In this document: positions 950 to 48,096 of the stretch, in pieces
Layout: every line of letters starts with the position of its first letter
Position numbering within the stretch: the stretch's first letter is position 1
From: Candidatus Omnitrophota bacterium
GTDB taxonomy: Bacteria; Omnitrophota; Gorgyraeia; Zapsychrales; Fredricksoniimonadaceae
Assembly: GCA_903836515.1 (NCBI GenBank)
Contig: CAILQW010000033.1
Coordinates: 1-48,096, forward strand
Direction of reading: 5' to 3'
DNA: 48,096 bases
Position numbers and translations under genes: made by a program
The notes under the pieces: model-generated
Database searches by the model: none
Told to the model about the DNA's origin: nothing
Seen by the model: the letters and a program-made list of their open reading frames with translations, nothing else

Positions 950-1035
950 TATTTGAAATAATCAATCAGTTAAAAAAACGTTTTCTCGCTTGTAAGTCTT
1001 TGCGCGGGAGAAATCTATCCAAGAGGGGATGTCGT

Positions 1036-3789
1036 ATGGAGATCATCAATCGTTTATTCCGGGGGCTTATCGTGGGCTGCATGGTGTTGGCCCAGTCCCA
1101 GGCTTATGCTTTGCCGTCTGGTGAAGCGGTAGTCCCTGGCTCTGGTTCGGCTACCTTTAATACCAGTGTCCCCGGGCAGTTGACCGTCAACCAGAATACG
1201 GGCAAGGTTATCATTAATTATGATTCTTTTTCTATCGGCCAGGCTGAAACGGTTCAGTTCAATCAGCCCAATGCCTCGAGTATCGCGCTTAACCGCGTGA
1301 CAGGCACCAGCCCATCCAGCATTATGGGCACCTTGCGTGCCAACGGGCAGATCTTCCTCATTAACCCCAATGGTGTGCTTTTTGGCCGTACGGCCCAGGT
1401 GGATGTGCGCGGGCTCGTGGCATCAAACATGAATATATCGAATGCCGATTTTTCAAGCGGCAACTATTTTTTCCAGGGGAAAAATGGGTCGGTGATCAAC
1501 CAGGGTGTCATTTCGGCCCCGGGTGGGTATGTGGCCCTCATCGGATCGCATGTCATCAACAGCGGTTATATTACGGCGGACCTGGGTTCCGTGGCCCTGG
1601 CCGCCGGCAACAAGGTGACCTTGAGCCTTGATCCCCGCGGGATCGTGAATGTGGCCGTCAAGGATCCGGCGATATTCAATGCCTCCGTTGATGCGGCTGT
1701 GAGGAATGATGGTGTTATCCAGGCCAATGGCGGAAAGGTTATCCTGACAGCCAAGGCGCTTAATTCTGTTTTTGATCATGCGGTCAACAATGACGGTGTC
1801 ATCGAGGCCCGATCGATCAAGTTCCACGATGGGAAAGTTTTTATCTCCGGCGATAAGGATGTTGCCATCGGCGGCACGATCGATGGCGGGGATGTGACGG
1901 TGGCGTCGAGTGCGGGCGATGTGGTGCACGAGCTCGCGGGTGTCGTCACTACCCACGGCGGTGATTTTAAGGGGACGGCAGCCCGTGATTATATCCTGAC
2001 CGATGGTTCATCGGTGGATTCGGGTAACGGGACGATCGATATCCTCGCCGGAAGGGATATCCGTATCGGGGCGCCTTCCCGGAGAGATGTTTACCGGTAT
2101 GCCTGGCGCAATGGGGGCGATAGCCGCATGTATGGCGGCGAAGGGGATTTTGACAATGTTGTTTTCCAGGCGCATGTGATGAAGGCCGAAATACCTGCGG
2201 GGGCCGCGATCCGTTCGGATAAGGATGTGTTCCTGACAGCGCTCAACGGCGGTATCTCTCAGACGGGTGGCGATCTTGCGGCCAATAATTTGATGCTTTC
2301 GACAAAGACAGGCATGCAGGGGGTCGGGTTTAACGGCGGGCTTCTTGTCAAAGTCAATAACCTGTCGGCCGTTAATCGCGGTTCGGGAGATATCCGCGTC
2401 AAGGATCTGAAGGACCTTGCCGTGGCCGACCTGACATCCCGTCATGGCTTAAACAGCGGTGTCCAGGGCACCAACGGTGTTGATAACAAGGCTTCTGGCG
2501 GTGCGATTGATCTTGCGGCCAAGGGGGACATGAATGTCAAGGCGCCTGTCATCGGGCGGGGCAATATTATCCTCAGGGCGGCCGTGACCATCACCCAGTT
2601 CAAGGGCGGGGATATCACCATCGATCGTGTGGATGATGCGCTGATGGGAGTTCCGGCAAATGTCCATAGCACCTCGCATCCTGCGGGTGTCTGGGAATCC
2701 GGCGTGTCCAATGATCCGACGGTGGATGTGTCCTGGGAATTGCCTGCGGTTAACCCCGATGCGCCCTCCTATACGGCGCAGGCGTGGGGCGGCTATACCA
2801 TGGAAAAGGGTTCACATGTTAAAACTAACGGCGGAGCCGCCACGATCACGACGGACGGCAGCATCGTCCTGACGCAGGTGGACGCCGGCAACGGCAATGT
2901 GGCTATTACCTCCAATCATGGCAGTATCCTGGACGGGGACAGCGGCACAGTGCCTTATGATTACGATGTGATCGGGCACAGCATCCTGTTGTCCGCGCCG
3001 GAAGGCACCGTGGGGCAGTCCGGCCCGGGCCGCGAAATTGACCTTGGCGCTCCGGATTTCCGTTTCTCGTATGTCTGGGATGAAGCCGGGGCCACAATCC
3101 CGGACAAATCGGCAGATGCGTATACCACCTCGCTTGATCCGGTCACCGGGGCATGGACGTTTACGACGACCTCCAAGCCGCTGGCGGATGCGGTTGACTG
3201 GAATTTCCATATCGTCGGACTTTATGGCTCCCAGCGATCTGCGGCGGTGCATCTGGGCCCGTTCTTTATCGATGCCACAGCGCCGGTGATCACCGCGGGA
3301 ACGCCCTCCGGCACGCAGAACAAGGATGGCACCTATGCCGGGGATGTGACGGTTCCTTTCGGGGCGACGGACAATCTTTCCGGTTTTGCGCCGGACGGGG
3401 CCGTGTCGATCGACCTCGCATCACAGACGGCTAAAGGTCCGGGCACGGGCCTTCGGGTCACCTCTGAGGGTGTTTATGACAGGGCGGGTAATTTTACCCC
3501 CGGTATCCAGGCAGGGCCTTTCGACAGCGTGACACCGGATAAACCCCTGCCGGTTCCTGTTGGCGGCGAGAATCTTTTGAACGTGCCAGGGCCGCTCGTG
3601 CGTCTTTATTATGAGGTCTTGAGCCCCCAGCAACTGAGGTTGTTTGAACCGGTCAAGCCCATCGGGATGTATTTCTATCATCCGTTGACCGAGGTGGATC
3701 AGACCGCCATGAGCGATGTGGAGCTCAGCACGGACGCTTATAATTATATTGATGATCTTCTCAAAAAGAGGAAATCCGAGGTAAAATAA
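1036..3789 (+). CDS. TpsA-type exoprotein with filamentous haemagglutinin N-terminal domain
   Basis: A 917-residue secreted protein of the two-partner (type Vb) pathway. I chose ATG 1036, with AAGAGGGG 7-14 bases ahead, over the upstream in-frame start at 1000. A signal peptide (residues 1-25, cleavage after SQAYA) leads into the TPS secretion domain, about residues 26-270, which carries the hallmark NPNGVLFG at 110-117. Known TpsA proteins are exported through a cognate TpsB barrel that recognises this domain. The middle is Gly/Asp/Val-rich and repetitive, as expected for a beta-helix. Around residues 745-830 there is an Ig-like stretch (TDNLSGFAPDG). It is short for an adhesin. The partner transporter follows 35 bp later, so the two are probably co-transcribed. 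Confidence 0.9.
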   Translation: MEIINRLFRGLIVGCMVLAQSQAYALPSGEAVVPGSGSATFNTSVPGQLTVNQNTGKVIINYDSFSIGQAETVQFNQPNASSIALNRVTGTSPSSIMGTLRANGQIFLINPNGVLFGRTAQVDVRGLVASNMNISNADFSSGNYFFQGKNGSVINQGVISAPGGYVALIGSHVINSGYITADLGSVALAAGNKVTLSLDPRGIVNVAVKDPAIFNASVDAAVRNDGVIQANGGKVILTAKALNSVFDHAVNNDGVIEARSIKFHDGKVFISGDKDVAIGGTIDGGDVTVASSAGDVVHELAGVVTTHGGDFKGTAARDYILTDGSSVDSGNGTIDILAGRDIRIGAPSRRDVYRYAWRNGGDSRMYGGEGDFDNVVFQAHVMKAEIPAGAAIRSDKDVFLTALNGGISQTGGDLAANNLMLSTKTGMQGVGFNGGLLVKVNNLSAVNRGSGDIRVKDLKDLAVADLTSRHGLNSGVQGTNGVDNKASGGAIDLAAKGDMNVKAPVIGRGNIILRAAVTITQFKGGDITIDRVDDALMGVPANVHSTSHPAGVWESGVSNDPTVDVSWELPAVNPDAPSYTAQAWGGYTMEKGSHVKTNGGAATITTDGSIVLTQVDAGNGNVAITSNHGSILDGDSGTVPYDYDVIGHSILLSAPEGTVGQSGPGREIDLGAPDFRFSYVWDEAGATIPDKSADAYTTSLDPVTGAWTFTTTSKPLADAVDWNFHIVGLYGSQRSAAVHLGPFFIDATAPVITAGTPSGTQNKDGTYAGDVTVPFGATDNLSGFAPDGAVSIDLASQTAKGPGTGLRVTSEGVYDRAGNFTPGIQAGPFDSVTPDKPLPVPVGGENLLNVPGPLVRLYYEVLSPQQLRLFEPVKPIGMYFYHPLTEVDQTAMSDVELSTDAYNYIDDLLKKRKSEVK

Positions 3790-3824
3790 AATTCCGCATG
3801 TTTGAGAAAAAATACTGGAGGCGT

Positions 3825-5543
3825 ATGCCGCATAAAAATAGGGGCCTATCAAGGCTGTGTTTAAGCATCGTGGTGATCGCAGCACCTGTGCTCTTTGGCG
3901 CCAGCGCTTTTGCGGCTGAAAATGCAGGCACGATCCTCCGCGAACAGCAGGACCTCGAGAAGGGCCGGCGGCTGGAAAAGGCTGTCACGCTGCCTCAGGG
4001 GCAGCCTGCCGATGAGGTCAAATCGGCCCCTGATACGACTCAAAGGGGCGACAAGATCCTGATCACGTCCATCCAGGTGGAAGGTAACACCCTCTTGTCC
4101 GCTGAGGAGATCAAGAAATTGACGGCCGCCTGTGAGAACACGACCATGGATATCGACCAGATCCGGGGCCTCGTGGCCAGGATCACGGGGCTTTACCGTG
4201 AGAAGGGGTATGTGACCTCCCGGGCCTATCTTCCGCCGCAGACGGTCGAGAGCGGGAAACTGGTCATCAAGGTGGTCGAAGGCAAGATGGGAGAGTTGAC
4301 CATCAAGGGGAATAAGTATTTCTCTTCCGGCCTTCTTCGCCGCGAGATCACCACCAAACCCGGCGGGTATTTTGATTACCAGGATTTCTTGAAGGCCATG
4401 AAATACATCAACGAGCATCCGGACCGTTCCGTCAGGTCGAATCTGGTGCCGGGCAGGGAGCCTGGGACGACAGATGTGGTGCTCGAGGTCAAGGATCGTT
4501 TGCCCGTGCATGTCGGTTTTGAGGCAGACAACTGGGCGTCCCGCGAACTCGGCCGTTACCGTTATGCGGTCAATTTTCAGCACAATAACCTCCTGGGGTG
4601 TGACGACAGGCTTTATCTCGCCGCCCTGATGAGTGCGGGCGATCAGCTGGAGCTTCAGCAGGGGCGTTATACCTATCCGCTGAGCAATACCTGGACTGTC
4701 GGCGGGAATTTTCTCCTGACGAAGACTGACCTGGGGCGTGAGTTTGCGGCGCTCGACACCCATGGCACCGGCGCGGTCTACGGGGTTTTCACGCGCAAGG
4801 ATATGATCAATACACAGGCCCTCCAGCTGAGCGGCAATCTCGCCTTTGACATGAAGGATATCAAGGATTATTCCCTGGGTGAGATGACTTCCCACGATGA
4901 GCTGCGCATGGCCCGCGCGGGGCTCGAAGGCGATGTGCTTGATGCCTGGGGGCGCAATATCATCGGCATTGAGGAAGCCGCAGGCATCCCGAATCTGATG
5001 GGAGGGATGGATCCCAAGGACCCGATGGCTTCCCGGCAGAACAGCGGCGGACGGTTTCAGAAACAGACCCTGAATTATTACCGGTTGCAGGCCCTGCCCC
5101 TGGGGACGTCGCTTCTTCTTAAGAATAATTTTCAATATTCCAACAATAACCTTCCGGCCACCGAACAGTTCCAGATCGGCGGTCCGGTCAGCGTGCGGGC
5201 GTATGCGCCGGCAGAGTATTCCGGTGACAGCGGTTATTATTCTTCCGCGGAGTTGTCGATCCCGTTTTACGGGCTCTCGCGCAATATGGCCGTCCCGTTT
5301 TCTACGGCAAAATTGTATGATGCCATCCGTTTTGTGACGTTCTTTGATGTGGGCGGTGTCAGTTCCAGGACTGTTATGCCCGGGGAAAAAGGCGATCATA
5401 TGCTTAAAGGCTACGGCCTGGGGGTCAGGTTCAATCCGGGGCCGGATACAGCGTTCCGTGTCGAGGCGGGTTTTCCTATCGGGGATCAGTCTTCCGATAA
5501 TGATTCCACCCATGTATGGTTTGATCTGCAGCAGCAATTCTGA
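3825..5543 (+). CDS. TpsB transporter, ShlB/FhaC/HecB family
   Basis: A 572-residue outer-membrane protein of the Omp85/TpsB type. I chose ATG 3825 because GGAGG lies just ahead; the in-frame ATG at 3798 has no ribosome-binding site. A signal peptide (cleavage after AFA, residue 30) is followed by an N-terminal helix region. POTRA 1 spans about 78-153 (strand ILITSIQVEGN to LVIKVVEGK) and POTRA 2 about 155-230. A 16-strand-type barrel fills the rest and ends in an aromatic residue (LQQQF). The family exports TpsA proteins across the outer membrane. Adjacency to the TPS-domain protein makes that the expected substrate. A strong terminator follows 22 bp after the stop. Confidence 0.92.
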   Translation: MPHKNRGLSRLCLSIVVIAAPVLFGASAFAAENAGTILREQQDLEKGRRLEKAVTLPQGQPADEVKSAPDTTQRGDKILITSIQVEGNTLLSAEEIKKLTAACENTTMDIDQIRGLVARITGLYREKGYVTSRAYLPPQTVESGKLVIKVVEGKMGELTIKGNKYFSSGLLRREITTKPGGYFDYQDFLKAMKYINEHPDRSVRSNLVPGREPGTTDVVLEVKDRLPVHVGFEADNWASRELGRYRYAVNFQHNNLLGCDDRLYLAALMSAGDQLELQQGRYTYPLSNTWTVGGNFLLTKTDLGREFAALDTHGTGAVYGVFTRKDMINTQALQLSGNLAFDMKDIKDYSLGEMTSHDELRMARAGLEGDVLDAWGRNIIGIEEAAGIPNLMGGMDPKDPMASRQNSGGRFQKQTLNYYRLQALPLGTSLLLKNNFQYSNNNLPATEQFQIGGPVSVRAYAPAEYSGDSGYYSSAELSIPFYGLSRNMAVPFSTAKLYDAIRFVTFFDVGGVSSRTVMPGEKGDHMLKGYGLGVRFNPGPDTAFRVEAGFPIGDQSSDNDSTHVWFDLQQQF

Positions 5544-7476: not shown

Positions 7477-7929
7477 ATGTCTGAACCTGTCGCAACGAAC
7501 AAGAAAGCCTGGCATAATTATTTCCTCATGGATAAGTGGGAGTGCGGCATTGAGCTCCAGGGTGCGGAAGTCAAGTCGATCCGCGCCGGAGAGGTTAACT
7601 TTGCCGACACGCATGTCCGTGTGGAGGATCATGAAGTCTGGCTCTACAACCTTCACATTGCCCCTTACGCCCAGGCGAGTTACCTGAACACGGATCCGGA
7701 CCGCCGGCGCAAGCTCCTTATGAACAAGAACGAGATCAAGCGTTTATCCGACGGGCTTATCCTCAAGCGCCTCACCTGTGTCCCCACCAAGGTTTACATC
7801 ACGGCACGCGGCCTGGTCAAGGTCGAGATTGCCCTGGCCCAGGGCAAGAAACTTTACGACAAGCGCGACGATATCAAGCGCCGCGCCTCCGACCGGCAGA
7901 TGGCTCGCGCTGTACGCCATTCCCGCTGA
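7477..7929 (+). CDS. smpB: SsrA-binding protein SmpB
   Basis: At 150 residues this is a full-length SmpB. It has the family landmarks GIELQGAEVKSIR near the N-terminus, VWLYNLHIAPY in the barrel, and a basic C-terminal tail beginning GKKLYDKRDDIKRR. SmpB binds the tRNA-like end of tmRNA and delivers it to stalled ribosomes for trans-translation. Its RNA partner ssrA is in the same window at 43986-44402. It is the last gene of the 5665-7929 group. Its stop codon lies in the loop of a GC-rich hairpin that could be a weak terminator. Confidence 0.96.
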   Translation: MSEPVATNKKAWHNYFLMDKWECGIELQGAEVKSIRAGEVNFADTHVRVEDHEVWLYNLHIAPYAQASYLNTDPDRRRKLLMNKNEIKRLSDGLILKRLTCVPTKVYITARGLVKVEIALAQGKKLYDKRDDIKRRASDRQMARAVRHSR

Positions 7930-43551: not shown

Positions 43552-43632
43552 GAGCGTTTTCTTTGAAGAGAAGATCTCGTGCGACACAAGACCTTTACAG
43601 TGTGTATAGTTATGTGTATAAGGAGATGTATT

Positions 43633-43824
43633 ATGACCCGCATGAATATTATGATGCCTGACGATCTGTCGGAATATTTGAAAAAGGTCCCCAATAAAAG
43701 CCGCTATATAGCGGAGGCAGTAGCGGAACGGATCAGCCGGGAGCGCTCGAAACACTTGCGTTCCCTGTTGGCGGACGCTTATGCTGCGTCAGCCAAAGAA
43801 GTCACAGTGGTCAATGCACAATGA
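43633..43824 (+). CDS. Small antitoxin-like DNA-binding protein (ribbon-helix-helix type)
   Basis: A 63-residue protein with AAGGAGAT just ahead of ATG 43633. MTRMNIMMPDDLSEYLKKVPNKSRYIAEAVAERISRE reads as a beta-strand then two helices, as in the MetJ/Arc/CopG fold of antitoxins. The remaining tail is helical. Its stop overlaps the start of a 43-codon open frame (43814-43945) in the +1 frame, an arrangement typical of toxin-antitoxin pairs, but that partner is too short to be a complete toxin. Function as an antitoxin is inferred. Confidence 0.6.
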   Translation: MTRMNIMMPDDLSEYLKKVPNKSRYIAEAVAERISRERSKHLRSLLADAYAASAKEVTVVNAQ

Positions 43825-43945
43825 GTGGGGACGCTCCATTGATATTGCCAATCAACATTCAAGCCTGGTTACTGTGTTGCCCATTGTAAAAAAACAGCCG
43901 GGTTCTGGCTGGAACTGGTATAATTATATTCTTGCAAGAGATTGA
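43814..43945 (+). pseudogene. Possible MazF/PemK-like toxin remnant
   Basis: A 43-codon frame overlapping the antitoxin-like stop by 11 bp. SIDIANQHSSLVTVLPIVKK resembles the V-x-D-x-N-x(4)-TV-x-P segment of MazF/PemK toxins. The usual N-terminal GDIW and RP motifs and the C-terminal part are missing. The end of the frame (WNWYNYI) coincides with the ssrA -10 box. It may be a decayed toxin or a chance frame. Confidence 0.3.
43916..43924 (+). promoter_or_regulatory. Extended -10 promoter of ssrA
   Basis: TGGTATAAT is a consensus -10 box (43919-43924) with the extended TGN. No good -35 is needed or seen. A start near 43931 would give a tmRNA precursor with about 55 extra 5' bases, removed by RNase P. 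Confidence 0.6.
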
Positions 43946-43985: not shown

Positions 43986-44402
43986 GGGGGTGACTGGTTT
44001 CGACTTGAGTGAGCCGGGGCCAGGTTGCATGCCGAGGACGCCAGTTGGCCTCGTAAAAATCTGGCACACAATAAACGCTAACGAAAAACCGTTAATGTTC
44101 AGTGACTTCGAACAGCAGATCGCTTTAAACCCGATCGCTCCCTTCGGAGGCCTGGTCGCAGTACCCGCCATTCGCTAATTAATTAGCGAATGCACTTTGC
44201 CGGTGATGCCTGCGGGCCGGTAAAGTCACGCTGCAGGCTGGCTGTCGTGCGTGTCCCGCGCAAGACGGTGAGACGTCAGGGAATGGTATCCGGCGGGTTT
44301 GTCCGCTGAAACGCCGGACGCGACATTAAAGACGGACTACGCATGTAGACGCTTGATCTTAGACACTGAAGGACCCGGGTTCGATTCCCGGCACCTCCAC
44401 CA
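43986..44402 (+). ncRNA. ssrA: Transfer-messenger RNA (tmRNA)
   Basis: A one-piece tmRNA of 417 nt. The 5' end GGGGGTGACTGGTTTCGAC is the tmRNA hallmark. Acceptor GGGGGTG pairs with CACCTCC (44392-44398), with one G-U, then an encoded ACCA. The T arm has GGTTCGATTCC. The resume frame begins GCT AAC GAA AAA (44076 on) and stays open for 33 codons to a TAA inside the perfect 24-bp palindrome at 44163-44186. The predicted tag begins ANEKPLMFSDFEQQIALN and ends GLVAVPAIR, not the usual ALAA. It works with SmpB (7477) to rescue stalled ribosomes. A strong terminator follows. Confidence 0.93.
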
Positions 44403-44449
44403 TTTTCTATGTAATACCCATAAACATACTGATTTGTGTAAGTTATGGT

Positions 44450-44480
44450 AAGGCACTGTCAGCAACGGCAGTGCCTTTTT
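44450..44480 (+). terminator. Rho-independent terminator of ssrA
   Basis: AAGGCACTG (44450-44458) pairs perfectly with CAGTGCCTT (44469-44477) across a 10-nt loop, and the T run continues to 44480. It follows the tmRNA 3' end by 48 bp. Confidence 0.9.
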
Positions 44481-44500
44481 CATTGGTTTTTGCCCTATAA

Positions 44501-44532
44501 ATGTTGATAGATGTTGACAGAAATGTTGACAG
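44501..44532 (+). repeat. Three short direct repeats near the ssrA 3' end
   Basis: ATGTTGATAG (44501), ATGTTGACAG (44511) and ATGTTGACAG (44523) are almost head to tail, spaced 10 and 12 bp. Spacing near one helical turn suggests protein-binding sites, for example arm sites of an integrase or excision factor. The protein that would bind is not in the window. Confidence 0.6.
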
Positions 44533-44967
44533 AGTGAAGCTGTTATTCTGGATATTGTGGTGTTGAACGATTTTAGCTTTTGGGTATTGAATGCCTGAAG
44601 ATTAGGACTGGCGGACTTATCGGATCGAAGCAATAAAGGGCTTACTGGGCAGCTTTGGGGACTGGATGCTATCCAACGCCTGCTAAGAGGAAGAAGCTGA
44701 GACAGAGGTGCCAAAGAAGGTCCAGAATGGGCTTCAGGATAGGGCTGTCTGGACGTCAAAAGCGGATTGGGTAGAATTAACAAGATAAAGCTGTTTTGCG
44801 TCCTGTCCAGAGAATCGCAACTATTTTGAACTATTTTGCAGGAAAACCTGGAGATCGGATTATATTTAGTATTAATAGGCACCAGCGTTTTTCGCACTTT
44901 TTGGCTAAATATCGTGTTTTTCAAAGGTCATTCTAGGCGTATTAGATTGACCACATATAAATATTAC

Positions 44968-45003
44968 AGCTCATTGGGATTCGTTTCCCGGTGAGCTTTT
45001 CTT
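44968..45003 (+). terminator. Terminator-like hairpin upstream of the HTH gene
   Basis: AGCTCA (44968-44973) pairs with TGAGCT (44992-44997), with an inner GGGA/TCCC stem (44976-44979 and 44986-44989), followed by TTTTC. It lies 63 bp ahead of ATG 45066 and could be a terminator or an attenuator in the leader. Confidence 0.5.
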
Positions 45004-45065
45004 GTTTTATAGACTTCCCAAAATCCGGATTGCTATTTGCTAGTACTTGCTATAAACTCTTAATA

Positions 45066-45275
45066 ATGCCTTCTATCAAGAATCTAATCAAGCAACTAGA
45101 ACAGTATCGGTGTGAAAAACGCCTTAGTCAGGAGAAACTGGCTGAGCGGCTTTCTGTTGCTTTTAGCACTGTGAATCGCTGGATTAAGGGGCATAACGAA
45201 CCAAGCAAAATTCAACAGTTCCATATAGAGAAACTTTTAAAGACTGTTAGTAAGAAAAGGAAGAAAGCAGAATGA
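45066..45275 (+). CDS. XRE-type helix-turn-helix regulator
   Basis: A 69-residue protein. LIKQLEQYRCEKRLSQEKLAERLSVAFSTVNRWIKGHNEPS is a Cro/C1-type HTH, with a basic C-terminal tail (VSKKRKKAE). I chose ATG 45066 because the in-frame upstream start at 44991 falls inside the hairpin; no strong ribosome-binding site precedes either. It overlaps the helicase gene by 4 bp (ATGA), so it is probably the control gene of that system. The gene and its partner are more AT-rich than the polysaccharide locus. Confidence 0.8.
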   Translation: MPSIKNLIKQLEQYRCEKRLSQEKLAERLSVAFSTVNRWIKGHNEPSKIQQFHIEKLLKTVSKKRKKAE

Positions 45276-47542
45276 ACTATACATCTATTCGGGATAACCA
45301 TTCCCATGGCACTGTTGGTGAATTTCTGAAGCAGGTTCTTACTGACAAGTCAGATGTTTCGATAGTATCCGCATATTTCACAATCTACGCCTACCATAAG
45401 TTAAAAAACCACTTTGATAATGTTAATGAATTGAGATTCCTTTTTGGTGAGCCAACTTTCCTGAAGTCTATGGATCCAGAGAAAACCAATGTCAGAGATT
45501 TTAAGATTGAAGACGATAGGATTGTTATTCCTATTGAAAATCGCTTAACACAGAAAAAGATTGCCCAAGAATGCTCTGATTGGATCAGGGATAAGGTTCA
45601 AATCAGGTCAATGGTGAAGCCTAACTTTTTGCACGGAAAAATGTATCATGTCAAACAGGAAAGCGGGATTGAGAAAGCAATAGCAGGTAGTTCAAATTTC
45701 ACAGTTAATGGGCTTGGACTAGGTGGTAGCAAGAATATCGAGCTGAACATGGTGGTTGATAGTGATCGGGATCGCCAGGAATTAAAGGAATGGTTTAATG
45801 GTCTTTGGAATGACCAGACAGGCTTGGTTGAGGATGTTAAGGCTCAGGTATTGAAATATATTGAGCAGTTATACAATGAAAATGAACCTGAGTTTATCTA
45901 TTTTAAGACCCTTTTTCATATCTTTGAGAACTATCTGGACGAACAGAAGAAGGGTGGTCTTCTGGACGAGAGAACAGGCTTCTTTGATAGTGAAGTCTGG
46001 CACATGCTGTACGATTTCCAAAAGGATGGCGTAAAGGGTGCAGTCAATAAGATCCTAAAACATAATGGCTGCATTATTGCTGATAGTGTTGGTTTGGGTA
46101 AAACATTTGAAGCCCTAGCTGTTATCAAATATTTTGAACTTCTGAACAGCAGGGTCCTGGTGGTATGCCCAAAGAAGTTGTCTGGTAATTGGACTATATA
46201 TCAGGCAAGCCAGAACCATGCCCTGAATCCATTTAAGCGGGATCGTTTTAATTATACGGTTTTGTACCATACGGATATGGCACGGGAATCAGGTCATTCA
46301 GACGCCAATGGGATTGATCTGGAGAACTTTAACTGGGGTGCTTATGATCTTGTCGTAATAGACGAATCACATAATTTCCGAGGGAATCCTTTGGAAAGAG
46401 AAGGGAAAGATGGCAGCCTAAGAATGAATCGGGCTAAGTGGCTGATGGAGAAAGTCATTAAGTCAGGTGTAAAGACTAAGGTGCTGATGCTGTCAGCTAC
46501 ACCTGTGAACAATACCTTAAGGGATTTACGCAATCAAATCGCACTTATTACCGAGGGTGAAGAAGACGCCCTGTACGAATGTTGTAAGATTAAAGATATA
46601 TCCGCCACTCTTAAGAATGCTCAGACACACTTCACAAACTGGGCAGATCCCAAGAAAAACCCTAAAAGAAATATGAAGCAGCTCCTGGAAAAGCTAGATT
46701 CCTCTTTCTTTAAGCTGCTTGACGAAATGACTATAGCCCGGTCCAGGAAGCACATAAAAAGTTTTTATAATATCGAGGCTATAGGTAAGTTCCCAGCGAG
46801 ACATAAACCTGGGTCTGTTCACCCGGAGATCGATACAGATAACCGTTTTCCGTCCTACGACACTTTAAATAAGCAAATATTGAAATACGAGTTGTCTGTC
46901 TTCAAGCCTTCCAAATATATCAAGCAAGAGGCAATGAAGAAGTATGAAGAACAGGCTCAGGGACAGGTGCTTTCATTTAAGCAAGAAGATCGTGAAACAT
47001 TCCTTATTGGCATGATGAAGGTGAACTTTCTCAAAAGGCTTGAGAGTTCTATCAATTCTTTTGAGATCTCAATGGATAGGACCATTAAGAAGATAGAAAA
47101 TCTGGAAACAAAAATTAATGATTTCTTGAAGCATAAAGTTGGTTCTGCTGAGGCTCTTTTAGAAGGGGCAGAGCCTGAAGAAGATGAGCTAGAAGAAAAC
47201 GCTGATGACTTGGAACAGTGGCAGGTAGGTAAGAAATTTAAGTATGAACTAGCAGATCTTAGGTTGGAGGACTGGCTAAAGGATCTTAAGAAAGACAAGG
47301 AAGCGTTGGTCGATCTCTACAACAATGCTGTTGCTGTAACTCCTGATAGAGATGCAAAGCTGGTGGAATTGAAGAAGTTGATTCTTGATAAGGTCAGGAA
47401 GCCATTCAATGCTGGCAATAATAAGGTCCTGGTGTTTACTGCTTTTGCCGATACAGCACAATATCTCTATGAGGCTATAAAGCCTTGGTGTCAGAAGGAG
47501 CTAAAACTTCATTGTGCTTTAGTGTGTGGCAGTTATACCTAG
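45272..47542 (+). CDS. PLD-domain SNF2/SF2 helicase, N-terminal portion (ends at premature TAG)
   Basis: 756 residues up to an in-frame TAG at 47540-47542. A phospholipase D-like domain comes first, with one HxK motif (HGKMYHV, H121/K123) and SSNFTVNGL at 140-148. The SF2 helicase core has motif I ADSVGLGKTF (about 268-277), motif II VIDESHNF (about 360-367) and motif III LSATPVNN (about 406). A coiled, acidic linker follows. Relatives are common in defence islands with methyltransferase genes, so an anti-phage or restriction-linked role is inferred. The C-terminal RecA-like lobe continues in the same frame after the TAG. As it stands the gene is probably inactive. Confidence 0.85.
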   Translation: MNYTSIRDNHSHGTVGEFLKQVLTDKSDVSIVSAYFTIYAYHKLKNHFDNVNELRFLFGEPTFLKSMDPEKTNVRDFKIEDDRIVIPIENRLTQKKIAQECSDWIRDKVQIRSMVKPNFLHGKMYHVKQESGIEKAIAGSSNFTVNGLGLGGSKNIELNMVVDSDRDRQELKEWFNGLWNDQTGLVEDVKAQVLKYIEQLYNENEPEFIYFKTLFHIFENYLDEQKKGGLLDERTGFFDSEVWHMLYDFQKDGVKGAVNKILKHNGCIIADSVGLGKTFEALAVIKYFELLNSRVLVVCPKKLSGNWTIYQASQNHALNPFKRDRFNYTVLYHTDMARESGHSDANGIDLENFNWGAYDLVVIDESHNFRGNPLEREGKDGSLRMNRAKWLMEKVIKSGVKTKVLMLSATPVNNTLRDLRNQIALITEGEEDALYECCKIKDISATLKNAQTHFTNWADPKKNPKRNMKQLLEKLDSSFFKLLDEMTIARSRKHIKSFYNIEAIGKFPARHKPGSVHPEIDTDNRFPSYDTLNKQILKYELSVFKPSKYIKQEAMKKYEEQAQGQVLSFKQEDRETFLIGMMKVNFLKRLESSINSFEISMDRTIKKIENLETKINDFLKHKVGSAEALLEGAEPEEDELEENADDLEQWQVGKKFKYELADLRLEDWLKDLKKDKEALVDLYNNAVAVTPDRDAKLVELKKLILDKVRKPFNAGNNKVLVFTAFADTAQYLYEAIKPWCQKELKLHCALVCGSYT

Positions 47543-47971
47543 ACCACATATGGTAAAACTGACTATGACAGTATCTTGCTTAACTTTTCTCCTGTTTCAA
47601 AGAACCGGGCAAAGATGACCAGCGTTGCTCAGGTTGAGCAGATAGACATTCTCATAGCAACGGATTGTATCAGTGAAGGTCAGAACCTTCAGGATTGTGA
47701 TTACCTGGTTAATTATGATATCCATTGGAATCCTGTTCGGATCATTCAACGTTTTGGTCGTATTGACAGGTTGGGCAGTAAGAATGACTCGATCAAACTT
47801 GTGAATTTCTGGCCGACCAAGGATTTGGATAATTACATTAATTTAAAAGAACGAGTTGAAGCCAGGATGGCACTCGTGGATGTAACAGCCACGGGTGAAG
47901 ATAACATATTGGATGTCGATCAGATCGAAGAACTGATAACAGATGACTTGAAATATAGGGCTCAATCTTGA
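47543..47971 (+). pseudogene. Helicase C-terminal portion, downstream of TAG and truncated by IS
   Basis: In the same frame as the preceding CDS, this segment carries helicase motifs V and [23 protein letters not shown] and [14 protein letters not shown]. It clearly completes the second RecA-like lobe. A single T (AAG to TAG would suffice, as the position is Lys-like) separates the parts. The frame ends ITDDLKYR followed by AQS and TGA encoded by the terminal repeat of the insertion sequence at 47959, so the natural C-terminus is lost. TAG is a normal stop elsewhere in the window, so recoding is unlikely. Confidence 0.85.
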
Positions 47972-48006
47972 ATGTTGAACATAAAAATATAACTCTTTAA
48001 TAATAA

Positions 48007-48080
48007 ATCTGGTTTGGTGAACCCCGATACGGGGTACAATCCTTTTAATCTGCCAAAAGAAAAAGGAGACCAAACCAGAT
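48007..48080 (+). promoter_or_regulatory. Hairpin sequestering the transposase start codon
   Basis: ATCTGGTTTGGT (48007-48018) and ACCAAACCAGAT (48069-48080) are perfect 12-bp inverted repeats. The right arm covers the first two bases of the ATG at 48079, and the AAAAGGAG site (48061-48068) is squeezed against it. Inside lies a second perfect hairpin ACCCCG-ATA-CGGGGT (48021-48035). In a long transcript this would limit translation of the transposase. Confidence 0.75.
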
Positions 48081-48096
48081 GATCGATTATTTCACA
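48079..48096 (+). CDS. Transposase start (first six codons)
   Basis: ATG 48079 with AAAAGGAG 11-18 bases ahead opens a frame MIDYFT that runs off the window. Its position after an IS terminal repeat and leader hairpin makes it the probable N-terminus of the same transposase family whose C-terminus is at 2-133. Six residues alone do not identify it. Confidence 0.45.

Follow-up and report, generated by a model that had tools for sequence, protein, structure and literature searches.

An Ala-Ala end is regarded as a near-rule for the ssrA tag, and in the E. coli-type system the tag AANDENYALAA, of which 10 residues are encoded, is read by ClpXP. A tmRNA gene whose tag closes on Ile-Arg, as proposed by a first-pass annotation of a contig from the phylum Omnitrophota, raises the question of whether such an end is genuine and, if so, how a tag of this kind could be recognized.

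In the window (the whole stretch of DNA that was analysed, 48,096 nucleotides, from an assembly of 2.0 Mb and 96% completeness designated G000), the ssrA (tmRNA) gene occupies positions 43986-44402 of the forward strand. The RF00023 covariance model matches there over its complete length (model positions 1-374, 185.4 bits for a cut-off of 47), ARAGORN returns identical ends together with the tag ANEKPLMFSDFEQQIALNPIAPFGGLVAVPAIR, and both place a tRNA-like domain with an encoded CCA end. This full-length match is the only one in the genome, and a search for similar DNA in phage records gave no match. The agreement of the two methods confirms the tmRNA called by the first-pass annotation at 43986-44402, a genuine gene present as a single copy. 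The tag frame begins at a GCT resume codon (44077), stays open for 33 codons (44077-44175, forward strand) and ends VPAIR before a TAA stop codon (44176-44178), so that the gene has both a GCN resume codon and a stop inside the P5 hairpin. By a simple count, the chance of 33 open codons is about 0.2 and length alone is not improbable; the frame is considered a genuine tag because it is homologous in relatives and not because it is open. The tag of a member of the same genus (G001) is ANEKTLMFSDAQLAFATSEAPVGGVAVPV (ANEKTLMFSD...VGGVAVPV), and those from other genera of the family are ANEKPLMFSDFEAAVAKSPVAP...MAFGLAV (G030) and ANEKPLMFSDFEAAVKAQPIAP...MAG (G017). The inner core of the window tag, ANEKPLMFSDFE (44077-44112), has the same residues in the latter two genomes, and all base changes over the first 12 codons among the three are synonymous. 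Since relatives have the same frame, the resume codon assumed at the outset is correct, and the alternative of a wrongly chosen one is disfavoured. QQIALNPIAPFGGLVAVPAIR, a tag peptide ending in Arg, would be kept under tryptic digestion because of its C-terminal Arg.

In one-piece tmRNAs, the tag stop codon is normally held by the P5 hairpin. The perfect 24-bp palindrome enclosing the TAA (44169-44192, forward strand), which the first-pass annotation had described, is this ordinary P5 hairpin, and its RNA fold is far better than that of shuffled sequences (z -4.15). Its 5' arm holds the last codons of the tag, ATT CGC (Ile-Arg). In a relative whose tag ends Val-Leu-Ala (G028), P5 reads CTTAGCC-TAATTAATTA-GGCTAAG, and in the window CATTCGC-TAATTAATTA-GCGAATG: the centre is the same, both arms differ, and Ala-Ile-Arg occupies the place of Val-Leu-Ala. 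A sequencing or assembly error masking a usual hydrophobic end could be invoked, as the contig derives from a MAG and the tags of G001 and G028 end VPV and VLA. An indel or base error is nevertheless unlikely because the two arms of P5 match perfectly and have changed together relative to G028, whereas an error on one arm would need its mirror image on the other. Likewise, frame homology extends to VAVP, and Arg ends are found in 11 other genomes, bringing the total to 12 genomes from seven families (two in f1, five in f36 and one each in f13, f15, f25, f30 and f37). An error, including the frameshift considered by the first-pass annotation, is thus very improbable, and the unusual Ile-Arg end, read by ARAGORN in a frame open to VPAIR-TAA, stands.

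The gene of the tmRNA partner protein, smpB, is present and intact in the window, as had been noted (7477-7929, forward strand; NF003843 and TIGR00086 both above cut-off, 189.8 bits for a cut-off of 130). It lies 36 kb from ssrA, whereas the spacing is 69 bp in same-genus G001 and short in other relatives; the interval (7930-43985) carries a cluster of surface polysaccharide genes along with pilin-like ones. Just 5' of ssrA (43579-43945), two short overlapping frames resemble, by eye, an antitoxin of the ribbon-helix-helix type and a remnant of MazF/PemK. Directly after ssrA, GC content drops from 0.56 to about 0.42 (44403-48096), and genes there encode an HTH protein and a PLD-plus-SNF2 helicase (45272-47542). 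It resembles a genomic island inserted at the ssrA 3' end, the contig ending before any far border; no exact copy of the last 14 or more bases of ssrA, as expected of an att-like repeat, was found within the window. Between a tRNA-Leu and smpB, a two-partner secretion pair (TPS-domain exoprotein and ShlB/FhaC-type transporter, 1000-5543) has no DNA match at the corresponding place in G001.

Tags were read from 213 Omnitrophota tmRNAs and proteases were searched for in 285 genomes, all of them assemblies and mostly MAGs, draft and uncultured. For some relatives (L021, L035, L110 and others), ARAGORN tags were wrong or missing and were re-read from the resume motif, about 65 of them by hand. One genome without a clear tag (G075) was excluded from the tag set; its tmRNA (L335) is present with no recognisable resume codon or tag. 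Across the 213 tmRNAs, tags measure 6-52 residues with a median of 26, the commonest length over bacteria being 10 (PMC11915505). The 33-residue tag of the window, initially described as long and atypical, is hence of ordinary length for Omnitrophota. Tag ends vary by clade, with ALV, VLA and MAV in the order of the window, FGLN and FAN in family f15, VALR in f36, ALGY in f17 and f40, and ALS in f38, and in nearly all Arg-ending tags the Arg is preceded by two hydrophobic residues. One tag has only 6 residues, ATNVAA (L362, G186), and one genome (G025) contains two ssrA-smpB pairs on small contigs (L029, L118) with tags ending ...AALV and ...AVLV, reflecting either two strains or a duplication. 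The lack of a tmRNA in 14 of 32 family genomes was not read as gene loss, since in those bearing smpB this gene mostly lies near a contig end. In the literature that was searched, no paper dealt with the tmRNA tags or the ClpX of Omnitrophota.

The protease search covered ClpX, Lon, ClpP and ClpA/B/C-type ATPases. ClpX (TIGR00382) was found above cut-off in 49 of 285 genomes, Lon (TIGR00763) in 11 and ClpP in 265, single absences being weak evidence in such assemblies, mostly MAGs. Of 40 genomes sampled for ClpA/B/C-type ATPases, 39 gave a match; as the model used responds to ClpB too, ClpC was read directly only in the genome of the window. In that genome, no TIGR00382 match was obtained at 1e-15 with all 22 candidates scored, nor any match to TIGR00763, while ClpP (E 2e-95) and a ClpC of 819 aa with Clp_N, UVR and an LGF ClpP-docking-like loop (L386) are encoded. 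In ClpX-bearing genomes, the protein retains the tag-binding loops of the E. coli enzyme (YVG, ITRD, RKH), whose contacts with Ala-Ala have been described (PMC7652416). Acquisition of ClpX by recent gene transfer was also considered and is disfavoured: the ClpX tree follows taxonomy and unites families of the same class, and repeated ClpX loss is for this reason the simpler and more likely history.

The end of the tag varies with ClpX. Ala-Ala closes 36 of the 37 tags from ClpX-bearing genomes versus 21 of 176 from genomes without ClpX (Fisher p 9e-25, uncorrected for relatedness). Every tag ending in Arg (12 tags), Asn (32), His (11) or Tyr (7) comes from a genome without ClpX, and none of the 176 tags of that group has an acidic or Lys end. 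Since 21 genomes without ClpX retain Ala-Ala, loss of ClpX is insufficient to change the end. Sixteen of these tags belong to f48 and its neighbours f53-f55 and f60, whose close relatives retain ClpX, and the others to Lon-bearing f18 and to f9 and f33. On the f48 side of the phylum, some members without ClpX show the first departures from it, with FAV, LAV and LAI in G107, G117 and G131. One 98% complete genome (G064) has the tag ANEHLALAA (L183) and ClpP, with no ClpX, Lon or ClpA/C match. The sole ClpX-bearing genome without an Ala-Ala tag end (G241; L301, L275) ends in AVIL; broken tag-binding loops in its ClpX were rejected as an explanation, the loops being intact.

A tmRNA tree computed with the tag removed contains 11 changes of ClpX and 9 of the Ala-Ala state. 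An independent-pairs comparison gave 5 supported pairs only, too few to reach significance, with Ala-Ala accompanying ClpX in about one and no difference in about four; the opposite direction appeared in only 1 of 200 pairings. By parsimony, the last residue changes about 65 times on branches without ClpX (length 38.3) and never on branches with it (8.6), which departs from the branch-length expectation (p 2e-6). With relatedness only partly controlled, this count supports an Ala-Ala constraint that is held with ClpX and released without it. The suggestion of the first-pass annotation that this lineage uses a different degradation signal is backed by the 213-tag survey and by a genome of the window that has neither ClpX nor Lon.

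It is likely that the tmRNA of the window is functional but that ClpXP has ceased to shape its tag: the Ala-Ala rule would have been lifted by the loss of ClpX, and an inner signal would be read by a different protease, probably ClpCP. Ancestral Omnitrophota would have had ClpX and Ala-Ala tags, and ClpX would have been lost in most lineages, including that of the window, which is also without Lon. Once ClpX was gone, the last two to three residues, located in the 5' arm of P5, could drift together with the hairpin, here to Ala-Ile-Arg, while inner segments (the core described above; VAEAExIL or TVDxLL in relatives) would stay selected and are probably the real degron. Ribosome rescue and tagging would proceed as usual, and neither ClpXP nor Lon but some further protease would receive the tagged protein, the likeliest reader of the core being ClpP with ClpC, since both are present. 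From gene content and codon patterns, we infer that tagged proteins are degraded, with ClpCP as the protease and the core as the signal. A tentative extension, to which we give a little less than an even chance, is that in most of Omnitrophota the loss of ClpX and Lon moved the degron from the Ala-Ala end to inner LxFSD, VAEAExIL or TVDxLL segments, read by ClpCP directly or via adaptors, with tolerance of any end that is uncharged or basic, such as Arg.

Codon patterns inside the tag bear on a different view, according to which the tag is mainly a release device: rescue would be selected, degradation would be weak or absent, and the end would drift neutrally within the limits of P5. Ends are indeed nearly free in lineages without ClpX while P5 pairing is retained, and no known reader of -IR ends has been demonstrated. 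VAEAExIL tags, found in 32 genomes from 14 families, none with ClpX, nevertheless show strong amino-acid selection on their inner codons, entropy at codon positions 1, 2 and 3 being 0.27, 0.18 and 1.39 in the core as against 1.15, 1.28 and 1.47 in the last three codons. Because the core motifs were themselves picked out visually in these tags, conservation of positions 1 and 2 is partly built in, which does not apply to the free third positions or to the contrast between core and end. TVDxLL tags have a similar pattern and LxF tags, the type of the window, a less sharp one, and the end of SWxxR tags, which include ClpX-bearing genomes, is constrained (0.58, 0.16, 0.60). As core amino acids are kept, silent sites vary and the end is free, selection in lineages without ClpX appears to act inside the tag and not at its end, which suggests an inner degron. 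Given also that tags remain long and that acidic and Lys ends are missing from lineages without ClpX, a tag serving mainly for release is unlikely. A reader other than ClpCP (FtsH, HslUV or a tail-specific protease), which might bind the core through a new adaptor, would account for the lack of ClpX and Lon and for a core conserved in the manner of a binding site. It is set against the near-universal ClpP of the phylum and the ClpA/B/C-type ATPases of nearly all sampled genomes, as matched by a model that ClpB also satisfies, and we regard it as quite improbable. Among the proteases covered by the search, ClpCP remains the likeliest reader.

Omnitrophota constitute a natural experiment, in which Ala-Ala persists in 36 of 37 tags where ClpX is kept, while its loss is accompanied by a variety of ends, among them Val, Asn, Arg, His and Tyr, inner motifs persisting. 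The identity of the protease that reads tmRNA tags when ClpX and Lon are both missing becomes directly testable, with the prospect of new degron and protease pairs from this phylum.

With E. coli-type tmRNAs, the gene of the window shares a one-piece structure, an SmpB partner, a GCN resume codon and a stop inside P5; it differs by its 33-residue tag, by an Ala-Ile-Arg end in place of Ala-Ala and by a genome without ClpX. Tags from ClpX-bearing Omnitrophota (ANELALAA, ADKLSWSNRSFGPMVLPLAA) belong to the same phylum and gene but keep the Ala-Ala end (36 of 37). Natural departures from the 10-residue norm also include the 2-residue Ala-Ala tags found especially in Fermentibacterota (PMC11915505), which went in the opposite direction, being minimal with Ala-Ala, whereas Omnitrophota tags are long without it. 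A precedent for ClpC acting on a protein with an SsrA tag is ClpC1 of M. tuberculosis, which can unfold such a protein (PMC6274998), and ClpC and ClpP are both encoded in the genome of the window. In Mycoplasma, loss of active ClpXP was accompanied by a longer, Lon-read tag (PMC9382460), the Lon-read tag of Mycoplasma and Mesoplasma florum being attributed to Gur and Sauer (2008) and Ge and Karzai (2009) as cited in PMC9382460 and PMC11986505. A longer tag, a changed end and a lineage without active ClpXP are common to both cases, and the genome of the window likewise combines an extended tag with the absence of ClpX. Unlike Mycoplasma, Omnitrophota mostly lack Lon as well, which occurs in only 11 of 285 genomes and not in that of the window; they keep ClpP and ClpC and have freely varying ends (Arg, Asn, His, Tyr, Val). 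Omnitrophota may thus best be read as a phylum-scale parallel of the Mycoplasma tag switch, minus Lon.
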